Positions 30,849 through 49,227 of a DNA stretch of 64,000 nt are shown one piece after another (the first letter of the stretch is position 1; every line of letters starts with the position of its first letter). Under the pieces are notes generated by a model, which was not told the origin of the DNA, did not search any database, and saw only the letters and a list, made by a program, of their open reading frames with translations. The stretch comes from Siccirubricoccus phaeus (GTDB lineage: Bacteria; Pseudomonadota; Alphaproteobacteria; Acetobacterales; Acetobacteraceae): assembly GCF_008360935.1 (NCBI RefSeq), contig NZ_SRXO01000031.1, positions 1 to 64,000 of the forward strand, read 5' to 3'. The position numbers were made by a program, and so were the translations under genes.

Positions 30849-31251
30849 GCGGCGCTGCTTGCCCGAGGGCGCCGCGGCCGGTCAAGCGAGGAGTCCGGGC
30901 GGGGCGGCATCTCCACGGCGCCATGGCAGGCGATGCCGGGCTCCCGCCCGGTCCGGCGCTGGCGCGGCGGTGGTGCGGCCCTCCTTATGCGGAAGCGCAT
31001 GCGGCGCAGGTTGAGGAAAGGCGAAGGCGCGATCCGGCTGGCCCGTCCCGCGCCCCCGATGCGCCGCCATGCAGCCGGCGGGGTTCACGAAGCGAGGGCA
31101 AAGCCGCCGCGCATTAACCGGAAAACAAACAAGGCAGGGTAAGCCGGTCTGGCGACGGGCCGGCAAAATCGCCAAGCCTTCCAGGCTGCCCCGCCCGGCA
31201 AGACAGCTCCGGGTCCGTGAAATCGGTAAACCCCGAACCGTGGAACAGGCG
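30849..31251. other. Gene-free leader of the giant octapeptide gene
   Basis: No gene is visible. A relatively AT-rich patch at about 31110-31145 (GCATTAACCGGAAAACAAAC) is the best promoter candidate for the giant gene. There is no clear sigma-70 pair and no CtrA-type TTAA-N7-TTAA site. Confidence 0.35.
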
Positions 31252-34200
31252 ATGCCGGCCATTTCGCTGCTGACGACGACCCAGATCGCCGCGCTGACGA
31301 CGACCTCGATCGCGGCCCTGACGACGTCGCAGATCGCCGCCATGGCGACGACCCAGATCGCGGCCCTGACGACGACGCAGGTGGGGGCGCTGGCCTCGAC
31401 GCAATTGGCGGCGATGACCGCCGCCGAGGTCGCGGCGATCGAGACGACGGACCTCGTGGTGCTCGGCACCTCGCAGCTTCGCGGCCTCACCTCGGCGCAG
31501 GTGGCGGCGCTGAGCACGACGCAGGTGGAGAGCCTCACCACCACCCAGCTCGCGGGGCTGACGACCTCGCAGCTCCGGGGGCTGGAGACGGCGGATCTGG
31601 CGGCGCTGACCACCACCCAGATCGGGGCGCTGAGCACCGCCCAGCTCGGGGCGCTGAGCTCGGCCCAGACGGCGGCGCTGGAGACCACCGATCTGGCGGC
31701 GCTGACCACCACCCAGCTCGCCGGCCTCGGCTCGGTGCAGGTGAGGGCGCTGGGCACGGCGCAGATCCAGGCGCTGACGACGACGCAGGTGGCGGCGCTG
31801 ACGACGACGCAGTTGCGGGCCCTGACCTCCACCCAGGCAGCGGCGCTCACCACCACGCAGGTCGGGGCACTCGGCACCGCCCAGATCGCCGGGCTTGGCA
31901 CCACCCAGATCCGCGGGCTGGAAACCACCGATCTGGCGGCGCTCACCACCACCCAGATCGGCGCGCTGACCTCCACTCAATTGAATGCGCTCACCTCCAC
32001 CCAGGCGGGGGCGATCGAGACCACCGACCTGGCGGTGCTGACCACCAGCCAATTGGCAGGCATCGGCTCCACCCAGCTCGTCGGGCTTTCCACCACCCAG
32101 ATCGGCGCGCTGACCACCACCCAGCTCGCGGGCCTCGCCTCGACCCAGATGGCGGGGCTCACCACCACCCAGGTGGCGGTGCTGACCACCACCCAGATCG
32201 AGGCGCTGGGCAGCACCCAGCTCCGGGGGATGACCTCCTCCCAGACCGCGGCGCTGACCACGACGCAGATCGGGGCGCTTTCCACCACCCAGATCGCCGG
32301 CCTGACCACCACCCAGATCAAGGGGCTGGAGAGCACCGACCTGGTGGCGCTGACCACCACCCAGATCGGGGCGCTGACCACCACGCAATTGGCGGCGCTG
32401 TCCTCCACCCAGGCGGCGGCGATGGAGACCACCGATCTGGCGGTGCTGACCACCACCCAGCTTGCCGGCTTCGGCTCGTCGCAGATGCGGGCGCTGGGCA
32501 CGGCGCAGCTTCAGGCGCTGACGACGACACAGGTGGAGGCGCTGACCTCGACGCAATTGCGCGCCCTGACCTCCACCCAGGCGGCGGCGCTCACCACCAC
32601 GCAGGTCGGGGCGCTGGGGACGGCGCAGATCGCCGGGCTTGGCACCACCCAGATCCGGGGGCTGGAAACCACCGATCTGGCGGCGCTCACCACCACCCAG
32701 ATCGGCGCGCTGACCTCCACTCAATTGAATGCGCTCACCTCCACCCAGGCGGGGGCGATCGAGACCACCGACCTGGCGGTGCTGACCACCAGCCAATTGG
32801 CGGGCATCGGCTCCACCCAGCTCGTCGGGCTTTCCACCACCCAGATCGGCGCGCTGACCACCACCCAGCTTGCCGGGCTGGCCTCCACCCAGATGGCGGG
32901 GCTGACCACCACCCAGGTGGCGGTGCTGACCACCACCCAGATCGAGGCGCTGGGCAGCACCCAGCTCCGGGGGATGACCTCCTCCCAGACCGCTTCGCTG
33001 ACCACCACGCAGATCGGGGCGCTCAGCACCACCCAGATCGCGGGGCTCGGCACCACCCAGATCAAGGGGCTGGAGACCACCGACCTGGTGGCGCTGACCA
33101 CCACCCAGTTCGGCGCGTTGACCACCACGCAATTGGCGGCGCTGTCCTCCTCCCAGACGGCGGCGATGGAGACCACCGATCTGGCGGTGCTCACCACCAC
33201 CCAGCTCGCCGGCTTCGGCTCGTCGCAGATGCGGGCGCTGGGCACGACGCAGCTTCAGGCGCTGACCACGACGCAGGTGGAGGCGCTGACCTCGACACAA
33301 TTGCGCGCCTTGACCTCCACCCAGGCGGCGGCGCTGACCACCACCCAGATCGGCGCGCTCGGCACCGCCCAGATCGTGGGCCTTGCCACCACCCAGATCC
33401 GCGGGCTGGAGAGCACCGACCTGGCGGCGCTGACGACCACGCAGTTCGGCGCCCTCACCTCCACCCAGCTCAACGCCCTCACCTCCACCCAGGCCGGGGC
33501 GATCGAGACCACCGATCTGGCGGTGCTGGCCACCTCCCAGCTCGCCGGCTTCAGCAGTGCGCAGCTCGTGGGACTTTCCACCACGCAGATCGGGGCGCTG
33601 ACCACCACCCAGCTCGCGGGGCTCGCCTCGACCCAGTTGGCGGGGCTCACCACCACCCAGGTGGCGGCGCTGACCACCACCCAGATCGAGGCGCTGGGCA
33701 CGGCGCAGCTTCGCGGTCTCACCTCCGCTCAGACGGCAGCGCTGACGACGACGCAGATCGGGGCGCTGAGCACCACCCAGATCGCCGGGCTGGGCACCAC
33801 CCAGATCAAGGGGCTGGAAACCACCGACCTGGTGGCGCTGACCACCACGCAGATCGGCGCGCTGACCACCACCCAGCTCGGCGCCCTCACCTCCATCCAG
33901 GCAGCGGCGCTGGAGACCACCGATCTGGCGGCGCTGACCACCACCCAGCTTGCCGGCCTCGGCTCGGTGCAGGTGAGGGCGCTGGGCACGACGCAGCTTC
34001 AGGCGCTGACGACGACCCAGATGGAGGCTTTGACCTCCACCCAGCTTCGGGCGCTGACCTCCACGCAGACGGCCGCGCTGAGCACCACGCAGATCGGGGC
34101 GCTGGGGACGGCGCAGATCGCCGGTCTCGGCACCACCCAGATCCGCGGGCTGGAGAGCACCGACCTGGCGGCGCTGACGACCACGCAGATCGGGGCGCTG

Positions 34201-37200
34201 ACCTCCAGCCAGCTCGGGGCGCTGACCTCCACCCAGGCGGGGGCGATCGAGACCACCGATCTGGCGGTACTCACCACCTCCCAGCTCGCGGGTATCGGCT
34301 CCACCCAGCTCGTCGGGCTTTCCACCACCCAGATCGGCGCGCTGACCACCACCCAGCTCGCGGGGCTCGCCTCCACCCAGATGGCAGGGCTCACCACCAC
34401 CCAAATGGCGGTGCTGACCACCACCCAGATCGAGGCGCTGGGCACGGCGCAGCTTCGGGGGATGACCTCCTCTCAGACCGCGGCGCTGACCACCACCCAG
34501 ATCGGGGCGCTGAGCACCACCCAGATCGCCGGCCTGGGTACCACCCAGATCCGCGGGCTGGAGACCACCGACCTGGTGGCGCTCACCACCACCCAGATCG
34601 GCGCGCTGACCACCACCCAGCTCGGCGCCCTCACCTCCACCCAGGCGGCGGCGGTGGAAACCACAGACCTGGCGGCGCTCACCACGACCCAGCTCGCCGG
34701 CCTCGGCTCCACCCAGATGGCGGCGCTGACCACCACCCAGCTTCAGGCCCTGACCACGACACAGGTGGCGGCGCTGACCACCACCCAGATGCGCGCGCTG
34801 ACCACCACCCAGATGGCCGGGCTGACCACCACCCAGCTCGGGGCGCTGGGGACGGCGCAGATCGCCGGCCTCGGCACCACGCAGATCCGGGGGCTGGAAA
34901 CCACTGATCTGGCCGCGCTGACGACCACGCAGGTCGGCGCACTCACCTCCAGCCAACTTGGCGCGCTGACTTCCACCCAGGCGGGGGCGATCGAGACCAC
35001 CGATCTGGCGGTGCTCACCACCTCCCAACTCGCGGGTATCGGCTCCACCCAGATCATCGGGCTTTCCACCACCCAGATCGGGGCGCTGACCACCACCCAG
35101 CTTGCCGGGCTGGCCTCCACCCAGATGGCGGGGCTGACCACCACCCAGGTGGCGGTGCTGACCACCACCCAGATCGAGGCGCTGGGCAGCACCCAGCTCC
35201 GGGGGATGACCTCCTCTCAGACCGCTTCGCTGACCACCACCCAGATCGGGGCGCTCAGCACCACCCAGATCGCGGGGCTCGGCACCACCCAGATCAAGGG
35301 GCTGGAGACCACCGACCTGGTGGCGCTGACCACCACCCAGTTCGGCGCGTTGACCACCACCCAGCTCGGCGCCCTCACCTCCACCCAGGCGGCGGCGGTG
35401 GAGACCACCGATCTGGCGGCGCTCAGCACCACCCAGCTTGCTGGCTTCGGCTCCACCCAGATGGCGGCGCTGAGCACCACCCAGCTTCAGGCCCTGACCA
35501 CCACCCAGATCGGCGGGCTGGGAACGGCGCAGCTCCGGGCCTTGACCTCCACCCAGGCGGCGGCGCTGACCACCACCCAGATCGGGACCCTCTCCACCAG
35601 CCAGATCGCCGGCCTTGCCACCACCCAGATCCGCGGGCTGGAGAGCACCGACCTGGCGGCGCTGACGACCACGCAGATCGGCGCGCTGACCTCCACCCAG
35701 CTGGCGGGGCTGACCTCCACCCAGGCCGGCGCCATCGAGACCACCGATCTCGCAGTGCTCAGCACCAGCCAGCTCGCCGGCTTCGGCACCACCCAGCTCA
35801 TCGGGCTTTCCACCACCCAGATCGGCGCGCTGACCACCACCCAGCTCGCCGGCATCGGCTCGGCGCAGGTGGCGGGGCTCACCACCACCCAGGTGGCCGC
35901 GCTGACCACCACCCAGATCGAGGCGCTGGGCACGGCGCAGCTTCGCGGCCTCACCTCCTCCCAGACGGCAGCGCTGACCACCACCCAGATCGGCGCTCTC
36001 TCCACCACCCAGATCGCCGGCCTTGGCACCACCCAGATCCGCGGGCTGGAAACCACCGACCTGGTGGCGCTCACCACCACCCAGATCGGCGCCCTGACCA
36101 CCACCCAGCTCGGCGCCCTCACCTCCACCCAGGCGGCGGCGCTGGAAACCACCGATCTGGCGGCGCTGACCACCACCCAGCTCGCCGGCTTCGGCACCAC
36201 CCAGATGGCGGCGCTGACCACCACCCAGCTTCAGGCCCTGACCACCACCCAGATCGGCGGGCTGGGAACGGCGCAGCTCCGGGCCTTGACCTCCACCCAG
36301 GCGGCGGCGCTGACCACCACCCAGATCGGGACGCTCTCCACCAGCCAGATTGCGGGGCTCGGCACCACTCAGATCCGCGGCCTGGAAACCACCGACCTTG
36401 CCGCGCTGACGACGACGCAGATCGGCGCGCTGACCTCCACCCAGCTCGCGGCGCTGACCTCGACCCAGGCGGGGGCGATCGAGACCACCGATCTCGCAGT
36501 GCTCAGCACCAGCCAGCTCGCCGGCCTCGGCACCACCCAGCTCATCGGGCTTTCCACCACCCAGATCGGGGCGCTGACCACCACCCAGCTCGCCGGCATC
36601 AGCTCGGCGCAGGTGGCGGAGCTGACCACCACCCAGGTGGCGGTGCTGACCACCACCCAGGTCGAGGCGCTGGGCACCGCCCAGCTTCGCGGCCTCACCT
36701 CCTCGCAGACCGCGGCGCTGACCACCACCCAGATCGGGGCGCTGAGCACCACCCAGATCGCCGGGCTGGGCACCACTCAGATCCGCGGGCTGGAAACGAC
36801 GGATCTGGCGGCGCTGACCACCACCCAGATCGGGGCCCTCACCTCCACCCAGCTCGGCGCCCTCACCTCCACCCAGGCGGGGGCGATCGAGACCACCGAT
36901 CTGGCGGTGCTCACCACCACCCAGCTTGCCGGCCTCGGCTCCAACCAGGTGGCGGCGCTGACCACCACCCAGCTCCAGGCGCTGACGACGACGCAGGTGG
37001 GAGCCCTCTCCACCACCCAGCTCCGGGCGCTCACCTCCACCCAGGCGGCGGCGCTCACCACCACCCAGGTGGGGGCGCTGACCACCAGCCAGATCGCCGG
37101 CCTCGCCACCACCCAGATCCGCGGGCTGGAAACGACGGACCTTGCCGCGCTGACCACCACCCAGATCGGCGCACTCACCTCCAGCCAGCTCGCGGGGCTG

Positions 37201-39588
37201 ACCTCCACCCAGGCCGGCGCCATCGAGACCACCGATCTCGCAGTGCTCAGCACCAGCCAGCTCGCCGGCTTCGGCACCACCCAGCTCATCGGGCTTTCCA
37301 CCACCCAGATCGGCGCGCTGACCACCACCCAGCTCGCCGGCATCGGCTCGGCGCAGGTGGCGGGGCTCACCACCACCCAGGTGGCCGCGCTGACCACCAC
37401 CCAGGTCGAGGCGCTGGGCACGGCGCAGCTTCGCGGCCTCACCTCCTCCCAGACGGCAGCGCTGACCACCACGCAAATCGGGGCACTCTCCACCACCCAG
37501 ATCGCCGGCCTCGGCACCACCCAGATCATCGGCCTCGAGACCACCGACCTGGTGGCGCTGACCACCACCCAGATCGGTGCCCTGACCTCCACCCAGCTCG
37601 GCGCACTGCTCGACGCCCAGGTGGCGGCGCTGGAGACCACCGATCTCGCGGCACTCACCACCACCCAACTCGCCGGCCTCGGCTCCAACCAGGTGGATGC
37701 CCTCACCACCGCCCAGCTCCAGGCGCTGACCACCACCCAGGTGGCGGCGCTAGGCACCACGCAGCTCCGGGCGCTGACGTCCACTCAGGCGGCGGCGCTG
37801 ACCACGACCCAGATCGGGGCGCTCTCCACCAGCCAGGTTGCGGGGCTCGGCACCACCCAGATCCGTGGGCTGGAGACCACCGACCTCGCCGCGCTCACCA
37901 CCACCCAGATCGGCGCGCTGACCTCCACCCAACTCGGCGCGCTGACCTCCACCCAGGCCGGCGCCATCGAGACCACCGATCTCGCGGTGCTTTCCACCAC
38001 CCAGCTCGCCGGCTTCGGCTCCACCCAGCTCGCCGGGCTCTCCACCACCCAGATCAATGCGCTGACCACCACACAGCTCGCCGGCCTCGGCACCGCCCAG
38101 ATGGCCGGCCTCACCACCGCCCAGGTGGCCGCACTGACCACCACCCAGGTCGAGGCGCTGGGCACGGCGCAGCTTCGCGGCCTCACCTCCTCCCAGACCG
38201 CGGCGCTGACCACGACGCAGATCGGGGCACTCTCCACCACCCAGATCGCCGGGCTCGGCACCACCCAGATCATCGGCCTCGAGACCACCGATCTGGCGGC
38301 GCTCACCACCACCCAGATCGGCGCTCTGACCACCACCCAGCTCGGTGCGCTGCTCGATGCCCAGGTAGCGGCGATGGAGACCACCGATCTCGCGGCACTC
38401 ACCACCACCCAGCTTGCCGGCCTCGGCACCGGCCAGATGGATGCGCTCACCACCGCCCAGCTCCAGGCGCTGACCACCACTCAGGTCGGGGCGCTCTCCA
38501 CCACCCAGCTCCGGGCGCTGACCTCCGCCCAGGCGGCGGCGCTCACCACCACCCAGATCGGGACGCTCGGCACCAGCCAGATCGCCGGCCTCGCTACCAC
38601 CCAGATCCGCGGGTTCGAGACCACGGACCTGGTGGCGCTGAGCACCACCCAGATCGGCGCCCTGACCTCCACCCAGCTCAACGCCCTCACCTCCACCCAG
38701 GCGGGCTCGCTGGAGACGACCGATCTCGCGGTGCTCAGCACCACCCAGCTCGCGGGCTTCGGCTCCACCCAGCTCGGCGGGCTTTCCACCACCCAGATCA
38801 ACGCGCTGACCACCACCCAGCTCGCCGGGCTCAGCACCGCGCAGGTCTCGGGCCTCGCCACCACCCAGGTGGCGGTGCTCACCACCACCCAGCTCGACGC
38901 CCTGACCACCACCCAGCTCCGCGGCCTCACCGCCGCCCAGGTGGCGGCGCTGACCACCACCCAGATCGGGGCGCTCTCCACCACCCAGGTCGCCGGCCTC
39001 GGCACCACCCAGATCGTCGGCCTCGAAACCACCGACCTGGCGGCGCTTTCCACCACCCAGATCGGCGCCTTGACCTCTACCCAGCTCGGCGTGCTGCTGG
39101 ACACCCAGGTGGCGGCGCTGGAGACGACCGACCTCGCCACCCTCGCCACCACCCAGATCGCGGGCTTCGGCACCGGCCAGGTGGCGGCGCTCACCACGGC
39201 GCAGCTCCAGGCGCTGACCACCACCCAGGTGCAGGGCCTCAGCACCACCCAGCTCCAGGGCCTCACCGCCGCCCAGGTGGCGGCGATGGAGACCGCGGAT
39301 CTGACAGCGCTGGCCACCACCCAGTTCGCCTCGCTCACCACGGCGCAGATCGCGGCGCTGACGACCACCCAGGTGGTGGCGCTGACCACGACGGAGATCG
39401 TCGCCCTCACCACCACCCAGATGGCGGGGCTGACCACCACCCAGATCGCCGCCTTCACCACCACGCAAATCGGGGCGCTGGAGACCACCGATATCGCCGC
39501 CCTGAGCGACACCCAGGTCGGCGGCTTCACCTCTACCCAGACCGGCGTCATGTCGGATCCGCAGATCAACGCCATGTTCGCCGTCTGA
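31252..39588 (+). CDS. Giant octapeptide-repeat protein (~2,778 aa)
   Basis: After a 3-5 residue start, the whole product is an array of ~345 octapeptides of consensus (A/G)L-T-T-T-Q-(I/L/V)-(A/G). Variants with ETTDL replace TTTQI at fixed places. A higher-order unit of 744 bp (31 octads) repeats with exact spacing: the octad before LQ starts at 31747, 32491, 33235, 33979, 34723, 35467, 36211, 36955, 37699, 38443 and 39187. Within a unit ETTDL octads are 4, 13, 4 and 10 octads apart. There is no Cys, Trp, Tyr, Lys-rich or globular part except rare residues, no signal peptide and no recognisable secretion or anchoring domain; the C-terminus is INAMFAV. ATG 31252 or GTG 31240 could be the start. 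The regular Leu/Ile spacing suggests a solenoid, perhaps exported by type I secretion, but function is unknown. Similar LTTxQI arrays occur in other alphaproteobacterial proteins (from memory). Confidence 0.85.
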   Translation: MPAISLLTTTQIAALTTTSIAALTTSQIAAMATTQIAALTTTQVGALASTQLAAMTAAEVAAIETTDLVVLGTSQLRGLTSAQVAALSTTQVESLTTTQLAGLTTSQLRGLETADLAALTTTQIGALSTAQLGALSSAQTAALETTDLAALTTTQLAGLGSVQVRALGTAQIQALTTTQVAALTTTQLRALTSTQAAALTTTQVGALGTAQIAGLGTTQIRGLETTDLAALTTTQIGALTSTQLNALTSTQAGAIETTDLAVLTTSQLAGIGSTQLVGLSTTQIGALTTTQLAGLASTQMAGLTTTQVAVLTTTQIEALGSTQLRGMTSSQTAALTTTQIGALSTTQIAGLTTTQIKGLESTDLVALTTTQIGALTTTQLAALSSTQAAAMETTDLAVLTTTQLAGFGSSQMRALGTAQLQALTTTQVEALTSTQLRALTSTQAAALTTTQVGALGTAQIAGLGTTQIRGLETTDLAALTTTQIGALTSTQLNALTSTQAGAIETTDLAVLTTSQLAGIGSTQLVGLSTTQIGALTTTQLAGLASTQMAGLTTTQVAVLTTTQIEALGSTQLRGMTSSQTASLTTTQIGALSTTQIAGLGTTQIKGLETTDLVALTTTQFGALTTTQLAALSSSQTAAMETTDLAVLTTTQLAGFGSSQMRALGTTQLQALTTTQVEALTSTQLRALTSTQAAALTTTQIGALGTAQIVGLATTQIRGLESTDLAALTTTQFGALTSTQLNALTSTQAGAIETTDLAVLATSQLAGFSSAQLVGLSTTQIGALTTTQLAGLASTQLAGLTTTQVAALTTTQIEALGTAQLRGLTSAQTAALTTTQIGALSTTQIAGLGTTQIKGLETTDLVALTTTQIGALTTTQLGALTSIQAAALETTDLAALTTTQLAGLGSVQVRALGTTQLQALTTTQMEALTSTQLRALTSTQTAALSTTQIGALGTAQIAGLGTTQIRGLESTDLAALTTTQIGALTSSQLGALTSTQAGAIETTDLAVLTTSQLAGIGSTQLVGLSTTQIGALTTTQLAGLASTQMAGLTTTQMAVLTTTQIEALGTAQLRGMTSSQTAALTTTQIGALSTTQIAGLGTTQIRGLETTDLVALTTTQIGALTTTQLGALTSTQAAAVETTDLAALTTTQLAGLGSTQMAALTTTQLQALTTTQVAALTTTQMRALTTTQMAGLTTTQLGALGTAQIAGLGTTQIRGLETTDLAALTTTQVGALTSSQLGALTSTQAGAIETTDLAVLTTSQLAGIGSTQIIGLSTTQIGALTTTQLAGLASTQMAGLTTTQVAVLTTTQIEALGSTQLRGMTSSQTASLTTTQIGALSTTQIAGLGTTQIKGLETTDLVALTTTQFGALTTTQLGALTSTQAAAVETTDLAALSTTQLAGFGSTQMAALSTTQLQALTTTQIGGLGTAQLRALTSTQAAALTTTQIGTLSTSQIAGLATTQIRGLESTDLAALTTTQIGALTSTQLAGLTSTQAGAIETTDLAVLSTSQLAGFGTTQLIGLSTTQIGALTTTQLAGIGSAQVAGLTTTQVAALTTTQIEALGTAQLRGLTSSQTAALTTTQIGALSTTQIAGLGTTQIRGLETTDLVALTTTQIGALTTTQLGALTSTQAAALETTDLAALTTTQLAGFGTTQMAALTTTQLQALTTTQIGGLGTAQLRALTSTQAAALTTTQIGTLSTSQIAGLGTTQIRGLETTDLAALTTTQIGALTSTQLAALTSTQAGAIETTDLAVLSTSQLAGLGTTQLIGLSTTQIGALTTTQLAGISSAQVAELTTTQVAVLTTTQVEALGTAQLRGLTSSQTAALTTTQIGALSTTQIAGLGTTQIRGLETTDLAALTTTQIGALTSTQLGALTSTQAGAIETTDLAVLTTTQLAGLGSNQVAALTTTQLQALTTTQVGALSTTQLRALTSTQAAALTTTQVGALTTSQIAGLATTQIRGLETTDLAALTTTQIGALTSSQLAGLTSTQAGAIETTDLAVLSTSQLAGFGTTQLIGLSTTQIGALTTTQLAGIGSAQVAGLTTTQVAALTTTQVEALGTAQLRGLTSSQTAALTTTQIGALSTTQIAGLGTTQIIGLETTDLVALTTTQIGALTSTQLGALLDAQVAALETTDLAALTTTQLAGLGSNQVDALTTAQLQALTTTQVAALGTTQLRALTSTQAAALTTTQIGALSTSQVAGLGTTQIRGLETTDLAALTTTQIGALTSTQLGALTSTQAGAIETTDLAVLSTTQLAGFGSTQLAGLSTTQINALTTTQLAGLGTAQMAGLTTAQVAALTTTQVEALGTAQLRGLTSSQTAALTTTQIGALSTTQIAGLGTTQIIGLETTDLAALTTTQIGALTTTQLGALLDAQVAAMETTDLAALTTTQLAGLGTGQMDALTTAQLQALTTTQVGALSTTQLRALTSAQAAALTTTQIGTLGTSQIAGLATTQIRGFETTDLVALSTTQIGALTSTQLNALTSTQAGSLETTDLAVLSTTQLAGFGSTQLGGLSTTQINALTTTQLAGLSTAQVSGLATTQVAVLTTTQLDALTTTQLRGLTAAQVAALTTTQIGALSTTQVAGLGTTQIVGLETTDLAALSTTQIGALTSTQLGVLLDTQVAALETTDLATLATTQIAGFGTGQVAALTTAQLQALTTTQVQGLSTTQLQGLTAAQVAAMETADLTALATTQFASLTTAQIAALTTTQVVALTTTEIVALTTTQMAGLTTTQIAAFTTTQIGALETTDIAALSDTQVGGFTSTQTGVMSDPQINAMFAV
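31579..39330 (+). repeat. Tandem repeat: 24-bp unit in a 744-bp higher-order period
   Basis: The basic unit is 24 bp (GCGCTGACCACCACCCAGAT-type). Eleven anchor positions spaced exactly 744 bp, from 31747 to 39187, show a second-order unit of 31 basic units present about ten times with no net insertion or deletion. Neighbouring units are near-identical over long stretches, for example 31921-32000 versus 32665-32744. The first ~320 bp of the gene is outside this phase. Confidence 0.9.
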
Positions 39589-44568: not shown

Positions 44569-45045
44569 ATGGCCGAATACCCCATCGCCCTGACCGCGCT
44601 GGAGGTGCCGCCCCGTGCCCAGGCCAGTTCCTACCCGCCGGACCTCGCCGCGAAGATCGGCGGGCGGGAGAAGCGGGTGCTGGGCGACCGCTTCGGCCTG
44701 CGGAATTTCGGCGTGAACCTCACCCGCCTGCCGCCCGGCGCCGCCTCCGCGCTGCGCCACGCGCATGGCGCGCAGGATGAGTTCGTCTACGTCCTGCAGG
44801 GCCATCCCGTGCTGCTGACCGATGCGGGGGAGACGCCGCTGGCGCCCGGCATGTGCGCCGGCTTCCGCGCCGGCACCGGCGATGCGCACCGGCTGGAGAA
44901 CCGCAACGCCGAGGATGTGCTCTATCTCGAAATCGGCGACCGCTCTCCCGGCGACAGCGTGGTCTATCCGGATGACGACCTGGCGGCGATGCTCGGTCCC
45001 GACGGCAAGTGGCGCTACAGCCGGAAGGACGGCACGCCGCTCTGA
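44569..45045 (+). CDS. Cupin-domain protein
   Basis: A 158-residue single-cupin protein. The first motif (RLPPGAASALRHAHGAQDEFVYVLQG) carries two His and a Glu for a metal, and the second is AGTGDAHRLENRNAEDVLYLEIGDR. The tail YPDDDLAAMLGPDGKWRYSRKDG is common in the group of small cupins annotated as possible sugar or hydroxy-acid-binding proteins. GAAGGAGAGTCCGCA precedes the ATG. It precedes otnK by 115 bp, but a functional link is not proven. Confidence 0.85.
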   Translation: MAEYPIALTALEVPPRAQASSYPPDLAAKIGGREKRVLGDRFGLRNFGVNLTRLPPGAASALRHAHGAQDEFVYVLQGHPVLLTDAGETPLAPGMCAGFRAGTGDAHRLENRNAEDVLYLEIGDRSPGDSVVYPDDDLAAMLGPDGKWRYSRKDGTPL

Positions 45046-45160
45046 AAGCGCGGCCCGCTTTGCCTCCGGCCTTCCCCGCGCGCCGGCGAAGGCCATAGCA
45101 TCGCCCGAAACGCCGGGGCATATCCGTGCCGTCCGGCCCCAATTTGCGGAAGAACCTCCC

Positions 45161-46528
45161 ATGCCCCTGCTCGGCTGCATCGCCGATGACTTCACCGGCG
45201 CCACCGACCTGGCGAACACCCTGGTCAAGGGCGGCATGTCCGCCGTGCAGGTCATCGGCGTCCCCGGCGGCGAGCTGCCGGAGGCGGATGCCGTCATCAT
45301 CGCCCTCAAATCCCGCACCGCCCCGGTGCGGGAGGCGGTGGCGGAAAGCCTCGCCGCCTGCGAGGCGCTGCTGACGGCCGGCGCGCAGCAGATCTTCTTC
45401 AAATACTGCTCCACCTTCGACAGCACGGAGACCGGCAATATCGGCCCGGTGGCGGATGCGCTGGTGAAGCGCCTCGGCTGCGGCTTCGCCCTGGCCAACC
45501 CCGCCTTCCCGACCAATGGCCGCACCGTCTATCAGGGCCATCTCTTCGTCGGCCAGGTGCTGCTGAACGAGAGCGGCATGGAGAACCACCCGCTGACGCC
45601 GATGCGCGACGCCAATTTGGTCCGCGTGCTGGGGCGGCAGACGGATGGCGCCGTCGGCCTCATCCCCTTCGCCACGGTGGCGCAGGGCGCCGCCGCCATC
45701 CGGAAGGCGATGACGGTGCTGAAGGAAAGCGGCCGCCGCTACGCCATCATCGATGCCGTCACGGATGCGCATCTGCTGGCGATCGGCGAGGCGGCGGCGG
45801 AGCATGCGCTGATCACCGGCGGTTCCGGCGTCGCCATGGGGCTGCCGGCGAATTTCCGCGCCAAGGGGTTGCTGCCGGCGCGCGGCGCGGCGGCCAGCGC
45901 CCTGCCGCCCATGCGCGGCGCCGCGGCGGTGCTCGCCGGCTCCTGCTCCCGTGCCACCCTCGGGCAGATCGGCTTCGCGCGCGACCATGCGCCGACGCTG
46001 GAGCTCGACGTGCTGGCGACGCCGGATGCCTCGGCGCTGGCGGCGCAGGCCTTCGCCTGGGCCGAGGGCAAGCTCGGCGACCGGCCGGTGGTGATTGCCG
46101 CCAGCGCGGTGCCGGAACGCGTGGCGGCGCTGCAGGCGCGGCTGGGGCGGGACGCCGCCGGCGCGCTGGTGGAACATGCCCTCTCCACCATCGCCGAAGG
46201 GCTGGTGGCGCGCGGCGTGACGCGGCTGGTGGTGGCGGGCGGCGAGACCTCGGGCGCCGTGGTCTCCCGCCTCGGCGTCACCGCGCTGCGCATCGGCCCG
46301 GAGATCGACCCCGGCGTGCCCTGGACCTATGCCGAGCCGGTCGGGCTGCACCTGGCGCTGAAGAGCGGCAATTTCGGCGCCCGCGATTTCTTCCTGAAGG
46401 CCTTCGCCCCGTCCGATGACCGGAGCGCCGGAGGGCGCGAAGGTCTGAATCGGCCGGGAGAAGGTTCCGATGACCGGAGCGCCGGCGGGCGCGGAGGTCT
46501 GAATCGGCCGGGAGGAGTGCCGGCATGA
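45161..46528 (+). CDS. otnK: 3-oxo-tetronate kinase OtnK
   Basis: A 455-residue four-carbon acid sugar kinase (DUF1537/nucleotide-binding family) that phosphorylates 3-oxo-tetronate to the 4-phosphate. The N-terminal substrate domain (GCIADDFTGATDLANTLVKGG) and the C-terminal nucleotide domain (VVAGGETSGAVVSRLGV, IGPEIDPGVPW, LKSGNFGARDFF) are intact. The last ~36 residues after AFAP are two copies of an 18-residue segment (SDDRSAGGREGLNRPGEG type) encoded by a 54-bp tandem duplication. These are not family sequence. The stop overlaps the otnC ATG. Confidence 0.9.
   Translation: MPLLGCIADDFTGATDLANTLVKGGMSAVQVIGVPGGELPEADAVIIALKSRTAPVREAVAESLAACEALLTAGAQQIFFKYCSTFDSTETGNIGPVADALVKRLGCGFALANPAFPTNGRTVYQGHLFVGQVLLNESGMENHPLTPMRDANLVRVLGRQTDGAVGLIPFATVAQGAAAIRKAMTVLKESGRRYAIIDAVTDAHLLAIGEAAAEHALITGGSGVAMGLPANFRAKGLLPARGAAASALPPMRGAAAVLAGSCSRATLGQIGFARDHAPTLELDVLATPDASALAAQAFAWAEGKLGDRPVVIAASAVPERVAALQARLGRDAAGALVEHALSTIAEGLVARGVTRLVVAGGETSGAVVSRLGVTALRIGPEIDPGVPWTYAEPVGLHLALKSGNFGARDFFLKAFAPSDDRSAGGREGLNRPGEGSDDRSAGGRGGLNRPGGVPA
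46412..46518 (+). repeat. 54-bp tandem duplication at the 3' end of otnK
   Basis: TCCGATGACCGGAGCGCCGG begins two consecutive copies at 46412 and 46466, with three substitutions over the first ~50 bp of each. It is in frame and adds 18 residues per copy to OtnK. Confidence 0.9.
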
Positions 46529-47785: not shown

Positions 47786-47853
47786 ACCCCGGGTCGCGAA
47801 AAGGGCGCCACCCCTTGCGGAATGGCGCCCTCTCGCCGGGATCAGCAGCGAGG

Positions 47854-48432
47854 TCAGGTGGTCGGGGTCTCGCTCTCGGCCGGCGCGGATGCCGGGGCCT
47901 CAGCGGCAGCGGCCGCGGCGGCCTTCTTCGCGGCGCGGGTGGCGGCGGCCTTCTTCGCCGCTTCCGAGCGCGAGGGGTTGGTCGCCTTCGCCGCGGCGGC
48001 CTTCTTCGGCGCCGCTGACTTCGCCGTCAGCTTCTTCGGCGCGGCCTTCTTCGGCGCGGCCACCTTGCGGGCGGCCGGCTTCCTGGCGGTGGTGGCCTTC
48101 TTCGCCGCCGGCTTGCGGGCGGTGGCGGCCTTCTTCGGCGCGGCCTTCCGCGCCGCCGGCTTGCGGGCCGTGGTCGCCTTCTTCGGGGCGGCCTTCCGCG
48201 CCGCCGGCTTGCGGGCCGTGGTGGCCTTCTTCGCCGCCGGCTTGCGCGCCGCCGGCTTCTTCGCGGCGGCGGCCTTCTTCGGCGCCGCCTTCTTCGCGGC
48301 GGGCTTGCGCGTCGCCGGCTTCTTCGCGGCGACGCGGCTGCGCGCGGTCGCCGGCTTCTTCGCGGTGCGGCGGGTGGTGGACACGGCCATCGCCTGGGCG
48401 CGGGCCGCCGGCGTCTCGGGGGTATCGGTCAC
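47854..48432 (-). CDS. Histone-H1-like Lys/Ala/Pro-rich DNA-binding protein
   Basis: A 192-residue extremely basic protein of AAKKPAARK-type repeats (AAPKKATTARKPAARK occurs twice), with an Ala-rich end (AAKKAAAAAAAEAPASAPA). Such proteins resemble the C-terminal domain of eukaryotic H1 and bacterial AlgP/Hc1 and compact DNA. The start is GTG 48432 with AAGGAG 9 nt upstream. The frame is open to an ATG at 48822, but those residues are not basic and do not fit. A single-copy gene with its own long leader. Confidence 0.85.
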   Translation of the reverse strand: MTDTPETPAARAQAMAVSTTRRTAKKPATARSRVAAKKPATRKPAAKKAAPKKAAAAKKPAARKPAAKKATTARKPAARKAAPKKATTARKPAARKAAPKKAATARKPAAKKATTARKPAARKVAAPKKAAPKKLTAKSAAPKKAAAAKATNPSRSEAAKKAAATRAAKKAAAAAAAEAPASAPAESETPTT

Positions 48433-49227
48433 AGTCAGGATCTCCTTCAGCGTTCCGGTGTTGGTCGGGCCGCGCCAGGCGCCGGCTTCCGCGGGAAGCC
48501 GGCCGGCCAGGCCCGGGTGACAGCGGGGGCGGTCGTGCGGAGCGGGCAGCGTGCGGATCCCGTGGCGCGCCTTGCCGTCTCGGTCGCCGTCCTGAAGCCG
48601 CGTGCAGGCCGCGCCCCCGGAGCGATGCGCGCGGCCTGCGGCGGCGCCATCCCTGCGGTCTCGCCCGTACCGCGATGCGCGAAAGGCGCGCCCCGCAGCC
48701 TTGCGGGATGTGCGGCGCCAGAGCCTGCCGTCATCCCATCCTGTCCGCGGTCCATGGACCGTCCTTCCCTGCTGCGGCACGCCGTTGACGTAGAGCGATG
48801 CGACAGGCAGTGAGTTCCTCATGTCGAATCGCGTGCATCGTCGTGCGCGCGAATCACGCTATCTGCACACGCCTCCTTCGTGTCAACAGAAACTGCGTGC
48901 GTACGCGCGCATTTTTCGCGTGCGCCGTCGCAGGTGATCGCGCAGCGCGCCTCGCCTTGCGCCGCATGCCGGAGGAAGCGCATCGCCGCGCACCGCATCC
49001 GCCGCCGCAGCGGAGATGCGCAGGGCGGAGACGATAACGGCCGCCGGGATCGCCGGCGGCCGTGTCTGCACTCTGCGGGAGGGCCCTGCGTTGCCGCAGG
49101 AGGCGCGGCGTGGCCGCCCCGCCGCCCGTTGCCCTGAAGTGGCTTTGCCGCTTCAGGCTGTGCGGAGCCCCGGCAGCATGGCTTCCCGGGGGCCCCGCGA
49201 AGCCAGACCAGCGGCTTCGCGGGGAGC
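48433..49227. other. Gene-free region between the histone-like gene and repeat D
   Basis: The first ~420 bp is the probable leader of the histone-like gene, the next ~60 bp its promoter. The remainder (about 48900-49227) is GC-rich with short inverted repeats such as GGCCCTGCGTTGCCGCAGG-like sequence near 49082-49100. I see no gene, tRNA or ncRNA. Confidence 0.4.
48857..48885 (-). promoter_or_regulatory. Candidate promoter for the histone-like gene
   Basis: On the minus strand a perfect TTGACA (48880-48885) is followed after 17 bp by GATAGC (48857-48862), a partial -10. If used, the transcript has a ~420-nt 5' leader before GTG 48432. This patch is the most AT-rich in the gap. Confidence 0.4.

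Follow-up and report, generated by a model that had tools for sequence, protein, structure and literature searches.

The giant gene at positions 31252 to 39588 (forward strand) of the 64,000-nucleotide stretch of Siccirubricoccus phaeus DNA analysed here, the whole of which we call the window, probably encodes a secreted, O-glycosylated rod wound as a helical screw of about 101 turns, in which the 744 bp period of the octapeptide array corresponds to nine turns kept by selection; we give this joint reading a probability of roughly 0.6. Each octad (T-T-Q-[LIV]-x-[AG]-L-x) is predicted to contribute a helix of 4-6 residues and a tight turn to a rod-like alpha-helical screw. Judging from the repeat patterns, one turn would take about 3.42-3.45 octads (27.4 residues), so that 7 octads would make up 2 turns, 17 octads 5 turns, 24 octads 7, 31 octads 9 and 48 octads 14. 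The pattern of faces would recur with each turn, and only duplications or deletions close to whole turns would keep the faces aligned; since faces stay in line only with whole-turn changes, the period of 744 bp would equal nine turns.

An array of octads with a 744 bp super-period

According to the octad listing and the translation of the draft assembly, the gene consists of 347 complete octads followed by AV and a stop codon, in a single register and without interruption, in line with the roughly 345 octapeptides counted in an earlier, sequence-only reading of this DNA. The usual residues at the eight positions are T/S, T/A/S, Q/D, L/I/V, A/G/R, A/G, L and T/G/S/E, positions 4 and 7 being hydrophobic and conserved, and threonine makes up 26% of the low-complexity protein (717 of 2778 residues). 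No domain other than the PF20080 repeat was found in the 2778-residue product. GC content by codon position is 0.61/0.59/0.94, and such a composition (0.94 at the third position against 0.59 at the second) fits coding on the forward strand.

The ATG at 31252 (MPAISLL...) is a likelier start than the listed one at 31069, because homologues begin there. They start at MPAISLL or MxxIssL and the sequence upstream of that point is unlike, so that the extension of the open frame (31069..31251, forward strand) is probably not translated. MPAISLL is common to the window gene, to a homologue from the same genus (G001) and to one from another genus (G030). Homologues begin directly with octads, and no N-terminal signal peptide was seen in them by eye.

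Between 31588 and 39027 (forward strand) the octads are organized into ten units of 31 octads (744 bp), as is seen from the spacing of D-octads, autocorrelation, comparison of units and spectra. Each unit contains a nested near-duplication of 14 and 17 octads (DNA identity 0.711 and 0.715 at those shifts) and may be read as nine screw turns. When all shifts from 1 to 3999 bp are considered, DNA self-identity is 0.859 at 744 bp and does not exceed 0.715 at any shift that is not a multiple of 744, while TRF reports a single 24 bp array of 344 copies (31269-39525), so that the self-comparison and tandem-repeat search proposed in the sequence-only reading agree with what it had described. Its eleven anchors, at exact 744 bp steps (31747, 32491 and so on to 39187), are all present, each with a sequence of the form AL[GTS]T[AT]Q[LI]Q, and its 4-13-4-10 spacing is another phase of the pattern observed, in which octads carrying D at position 3 follow one another at exact intervals of 4-10-4-13, ten times over and with zero errors. 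The exact period holds for the ten units but not for the first 14 octads (31252..31587, forward strand, from the octad listing) nor for the last 20 or so, where a C-terminal tail (39028..39588, forward strand) shows a decaying pattern. Roseomonas-like homologues have C-termini similar to the final octads of the gene (39508-39588, DTQVGGFT STQTGVMS DPQINAMF AV).

One may consider that the repeat length, or the period itself, was made by the assembler, since the genome is a draft of 54 contigs and the array of the same-genus homologue G001 is cut at contig ends. Against this, the 8.3 kb frame is intact and has a GC3 of 0.94, the units can be told apart at many synonymous sites, and the same period of 31 octads, i.e. 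nine turns of 3.444, is found in separate records, the other-genus arrays G030 and L046. On this evidence we set aside an assembly artefact as highly improbable.

Divergence and homogenisation of the units

In the nine pairs of adjacent units dS ranges from 0.17 to 0.39 and dN/dS from 0.15 to 0.29, with 15-30% of synonymous sites differing, and four more distant pairs reach a dS of 0.47 and a dN/dS of 0.33. Exact tracts of 143 bp (at a shift of 744) and 213 bp (at a shift of 1488) are shared between units, so copying or homogenisation is also ongoing, and they point to homogenisation that is patchy. The units are thus no fresh copies; they are under constraint at the protein level and are partially homogenised.

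An alternative explanation is that a 31-octad block was copied neutrally by unequal crossing-over, and that the period is the trace of this process, with no structural rule behind it. The exact tracts are what such copying would leave, and nested 14+17 and 31 repeats are the expected residue of stepwise block duplication, whereas the dS and dN/dS values of both adjacent and distant pairs speak against it, and it leaves unexplained why 45 of 46 groups of arrays have periods near multiples of 3.42 and why single-octad gaps are lacking (see below). We consider neutral amplification unlikely and set it aside. Of the two origins that the sequence-only reading had left open, recent amplification of a segment does not fit the dS between neighbours, and selection for a periodic structure is favoured, because of these dS and dN/dS values, the recurrence of the 31-octad period in another genus and the fact that one rule spans arrays of differing periods.

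Members of the family

The array belongs to the Pfam family ALTTAQ_rpt (PF20080), which it matches with 2003.7 bits (cut-off 26.4) in 103 stretches. In its own genome (6.55 Mb, 54 contigs) there are 91 matches to PF20080, every one of them in this gene. Among 60 genomes (its own and 59 relatives) the family is present in 12, all of which are among the 36 genomes of the same taxonomic family, and a profile search found it in none of the 24 other genomes of the class. The homologue search that had been suggested earlier yielded many relatives: a pattern scan gave at least 75 loci, which come from one query (the N-terminal part of the window array) and from the best 80 of 279 matches, and are therefore biased to similar arrays. 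Roseomonas and Neoroseomonas are among the closest among the matches listed, which also include Rhizobium, Azospirillum, Aquabacterium, Duganella and Pseudomonas, as well as metagenome-assembled genomes labelled Solidesulfovibrio, Geobacter and Methylomirabilis; the octad filter yielded no array from the Methylomirabilis record, nor from locus L091. In a separate set of 14 well-known control genomes, ALTTAQ repeats were observed only in Caulobacter vibrioides, which also has GT41 (Pfam Glyco_transf_41), while Synechococcus elongatus has GT41 and no ALTTAQ; a relative may thus be present in a laboratory model organism.

Roseomonas-like homologues share a C-terminus. A different, LDLNGDG-type C-terminal domain occurs in 16 array frames, mostly betaproteobacterial (carriers include L059, L063, L065, L070, L073, L074, L075, L077, L079, L083, L087, L089, L107, L115 and L119); it has no Pfam name, and only weak EF-hand matches were obtained, in two of the four scanned.

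Our literature searches found no paper on the ALTTAQ repeat, the string PF20080 occurring in seven listed papers with unrelated titles, and no description of a super-period in such arrays. The earlier statement that no described protein has this architecture therefore stands for the super-period but not for the octad, which is that of ALTTAQ_rpt and resembles that of a solved protein, HeliScrew4 (see below). The PF20080 model itself describes a 38-residue sequence family, to which the super-period, the number of octads per turn and the links to an exporter and to GT41 are added here.

A period of about 3.42 octads

Spectra were calculated from one-hot residues along the octad number, after cutting the arrays into octads, with shuffles of octad order as the control. 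In the window array the largest peak lies at 3.44-3.45 octads, with a power of 21 against 9 for the next peak and less than 3 in shuffles. The top peaks of the first nine arrays all fall between 3.38 and 3.47, although in the short G035a and G035b they do not reach the 99% level of the shuffles. The test against the 98th percentile of 60 shuffles covered 82 of 92 arrays (10 whose longest run was shorter than 40 octads were omitted); 81 exceeded it, and in 60 the top peak was at 3.3-3.55. The remaining 21 significant arrays have their top peak outside this band, at 2.0 (eight arrays), 2.42-2.44 (five), 8.5-8.7 (six), 5.2 and 5.7 (one each). Peaks at 2.0 are a true two-octad alternation, whereas those at 2.42-2.44 and 8.5-8.7 are aliased second and third harmonics of about 3.4. 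When only the band 3.3-3.55 is considered, 69 of the 71 arrays with at least 100 octads are significant (p < 0.01), with a median of 3.424 octads (about 27.4 residues) and a range of 3.374-3.467. Both exceptions, L108 (p 0.02) and L113 (p 0.49, no band peak), are from Magnetococcia. These two arrays (L108:8282 and L113:2; Magnetococcales, Magnetaquicoccus) show a very strong 16-residue alternation (power 42-43) and a 3.4-octad signal that is weak or missing, and perhaps form a different screw with two kinds of octad.

With G at position 6 as the reference, the phase is about 198 degrees for D/E at position 3 (R 0.72) and about 355 degrees for R/K at position 5 (R 0.69), each in the 49 arrays with enough signal, while phase agreement is weaker for other residue classes (R down to 0.08); all these figures come from arrays that share ancestry. 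Phases thus tend to recur from array to array, as faces of one common cross-section should make them do. Much of the spectral power is held by the polar and charged classes (R/K at 5, D/E at 3), to which positions 4 and 6 add a contribution.

This distribution of power bears on another explanation, in which the 3.42-octad rule holds but stems from the binding of a periodic partner, such as a surface lattice or a polymer, rather than from the protein's own turn. Sequence periodicity alone does not distinguish the two, and the large share of R/K at 5 and D/E at 3 speaks for a partner. Yet positions 4 and 6 are periodic too, both structural models described below consist of stacked short helices, and the period is near-constant over many genera, all of which would need to share the partner. 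We regard this explanation as rather unlikely, and an intrinsic turn of the screw as the preferred one.

Super-periods and the lengths of related arrays

If the period reflects a turn, higher-order repeats should be close to whole numbers of turns. In the 67 arrays of at least 120 octads, in each of which the super-period was tested, pooled self-similarity is high at shifts of 7, 10, 14, 17, 24, 27, 31, 34, 41, 44, 48 and 51 octads and low between them, and it is correlated with the distance from a whole turn (Spearman -0.89). In 66 of the 67 the best super-period departs from a whole number of turns by no more than 0.15 turn. When the arrays are sorted by hand into 46 groups according to their record titles, and each group is represented by its longest array, 45 groups fit within 0.15 turn, against 29% by chance, a figure that overstates independence given shared ancestry. 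Group super-periods are 24 octads (13 groups), 17 (12), 48 (9), 10 (3), 27, 31 and 34 (2 each), and 7 and 41 (1 each), where 34 may be twice 17 and 48 twice 24; the sole exception is a Pseudomonas array, with a super-period of 5 octads. This array (L085:1211, from Pseudomonas fluvialis) encodes more than 5000 residues and has its best self-match at the 5-octad shift, and in another Pseudomonas (L107) shifts of 17 and 5 octads are about equal. Obviously, the spectrum of an array with period P has peaks only at P/k, and a fit of "9.00 turns" is thus circular to some degree; what this leaves free is the values of P that occur and the choice of dominant harmonic, and a P without a harmonic near 3.42 is hardly seen.

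Length differences between related arrays were examined by octad-level alignment with free ends of the 34 most similar pairs. No internal gap was present in 15 pairs, aligned over 181-329 octads at 59-94% identity, and in 10 of these the lengths of the two arrays differ by no more than 2 octads. In the remaining pairs there are 26 gaps (of 55, 14, 7, 17, 96, 3, 45, 79, 41, 68 and 110 octads). If a turn is taken as 3.43 octads, 25 of them depart from whole turns by at most 0.15 turn, and no gap is of a single octad; their independence is limited, as many pairs share members and all eight gaps of 55 involve L052 or L056. With a laxer gap penalty 43 of 45 gaps are in phase, the two others being of 68 and 4 octads, and again none is of a single octad. 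Under simple slippage, single-octad changes would be expected. Since periodic sequences tend to be aligned with their gaps in phase, the pairs of equal length and the differences in total length (181 against 277 and 329 against 346 octads) are stronger evidence than the gaps.

Predicted fold

AlphaFold models of 496 residues were obtained for a fragment of the window array (35 aligned fragments, pLDDT 95.3, pTM 0.79) and of a Rhizobium array (26 aligned fragments, pLDDT 95.2, pTM 0.78). In both, DSSP assigns one helix of 4-6 residues (7 once) to each of the 62 octads, so that the structure prediction called for by the sequence-only reading gives, for the window fragment, a helix in every octad. 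One short helix per octad is thus predicted, as in an alpha-helical screw of the HeliScrew type. In the helix-length series of the two models the p-values are 0.009 and 0.026 within the band but 0.34 and 0.38 over all periods, and the top period in the Rhizobium model is 2.13; in the models, helix length is therefore only suggestive of a period of about 3.4 octads.

HeliScrew4 (PDB 9zem) is the best sequence match among solved structures, both with a profile of the arrays (E 1.8e-24) and with a single fragment (E 2.4e-13; it scores 53 bits there and the chain ranked next 24). In the profile search it reaches 88.9 bits and the next best, among LRR and other chains, 46.9, which suggests that these other chains are picked up by composition and that HeliScrew4 stands apart. 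A 2025 preprint (PMC12822642), to which 9zem, going by its name, apparently belongs, reports the tightly wound alpha-helical screw as new, derived from random repeats and confirmed by crystallography. HeliScrew4 has the same octad logic as the natural arrays (e.g. TPEQIAAL), but it has 120 residues and is by inference designed, whereas natural arrays are giant and have super-periods.

By E-value mesothelin is the top Foldseek match for both models. It is described as a right-handed solenoid of short helices (PMC10035497), but with 24 helices in nine layers rather than octads, and its TM-score by query length (0.13-0.25) and rmsd (about 8-13 Å) indicate no global match. An ARM/HEAT or mesothelin fold was rejected, the best TM-scores by query length being 0.25 and 0.33 among the 50 best hits listed per search. 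A search of viral structures gave partial matches only (best E 2.6e-6, TM-score by query length 0.16). In the viral library a few proteins of uncultured Caudovirales match parts of the octad model, e.g. A0A6J7X2V1 (135 columns, 32% identity, E 4.1e-5), and phages may carry short octad screws.

The hallmark of leucine-rich repeats is the strand-forming LxxLxL motif. LRR_EndoS matches the array with 89.6 bits (cut-off 27.9), yet neither model contains strands, and we take this match as compositional; the same appears to be the case for the other Pfam side matches on the array (Phage_TAC_7, DUF4351, Fibrinogen_BP) and for NCBIfam matches on the arrays of two relatives. With 26% threonine, low complexity and GT41 linked to the arrays of relatives, one might also think of a mucin-like or disordered stalk, extended and lacking a fixed fold. 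The 496-residue models from two lineages, both with a pLDDT of 95, the conserved hydrophobic residues at positions 4 and 7 and gaps that keep phase all argue against such a stalk, which we set aside as quite improbable in favour of the screw.

Gene neighbourhood

Of the 43 loci that have at least 2.5 kb on both sides, 31 have GT41 no farther than 3.5 kb from the array, and 12, the window included, have none so close. Downstream of the array it was observed in 29 of 60 cases, 28 of them on the array's own strand, and upstream in 10 of 63. One scan covered 25 downstream genes, picked by size and strand from a list of 101 neighbours, whereas the count of 31 in 43 is unpicked. At the level of genomes, GT41 occurs in all 12 genomes with ALTTAQ and in 19 of the 48 without, and strong GT41 matches (E < about 1e-28, a threshold set after seeing the table) in 11 of 12 against 4 of 48. 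The nearest solved relatives of two of the neighbouring GT41 proteins are O-GlcNAc transferases.

HlyB-like genes more than 60% identical to that of G030 are present near 15 arrays, G030's own among them, in the 85 sources searched, and 14 of these loci have HlyD as well. Eight Roseomonas-like loci (L048-L052, L054-L056) show the order HlyB-like, HlyD, array, GT41, and both HlyD genes scanned from such loci pass TIGR01843, while the HlyB-like gene of G030 has TIGR01846 as its best model, below the cut-off (617 against 726 bits). In G030 itself two GT41 genes precede the array and HlyB-HlyD follow it. The genome of the window has similar components on three different contigs: the array on contig 25, a methyltransferase with two GT41 genes on contig 1 (sharing 60% and 68% identity with their G030 counterparts, in the same order) and HlyB-HlyD on contig 51 (79% and 61% identical to those of G030). 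On contig 1 (L146:7248-12217) the methyltransferase is followed by the two GT41 genes, in the order seen before the G030 array.

Within the window, a domain scan of the neighbours (phosphate acetyl/butyryl transferase, molybdopterin oxidoreductase, enoyl-CoA hydratase, RibD_C, PTPS, glycosyltransferases, citrate synthase and others) gave no functional link to the array. Two other repeats were observed there: nested short tandem repeats of 15-129 bp at 47822-48520 (repeats at 47881-48365), which on the minus strand appear to encode an Ala/Lys/Pro-rich, histone H1-like tail, and, towards the end of the gene at 44822-46528, a 54 bp tandem duplication (46412-46514; 1.9 copies, 95% match).

Giant repeat adhesins secreted by type I systems are built of beta domains. 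The array proteins resemble them in being huge, in having no N-terminal signal that can be seen by eye and in that HlyB/HlyD-type genes adjoin the arrays of some relatives, but differ in being made of all-helical octads, and Pfam found no RTX repeats in the window protein.

Proposed mechanism and implications

We propose that selection removes length changes that break the phase, and that variants would spread among units by gene conversion or unequal exchange. The protein is probably exported through a type I (HlyB/HlyD) exporter, as the gene order in relatives suggests, and GT41 enzymes would probably O-glycosylate exposed residues among its many Thr/Ser, giving a sugar-coated surface or extracellular rod. 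If each turn rises by about 0.9-1 nm, a typical helix packing distance, a rod of about 101 turns would be roughly 90-100 nm (~0.1 micrometre) long and might serve as a surface rod or adhesin.

An odd period of 744 bp thus leads to a quantitative rule, in which the number of octads per turn sets the higher-order repeat lengths that are allowed, namely near-multiples of 3.42 such as 7, 10, 17, 24, 31 and 48 octads. If this is true, the pitch of a superhelix can be read from genome sequence alone. To our knowledge the substrates of bacterial GT41 enzymes are mostly unknown, and the array proteins are candidates for a dedicated substrate with hundreds of Thr/Ser. For a fold that was reported as new, our observations suggest a widespread natural family, and we would give even odds to the broader proposition that nature has long used the helical screw, for giant secreted sugar-coated rods in many Proteobacteria, and that its pitch sets which duplications survive.
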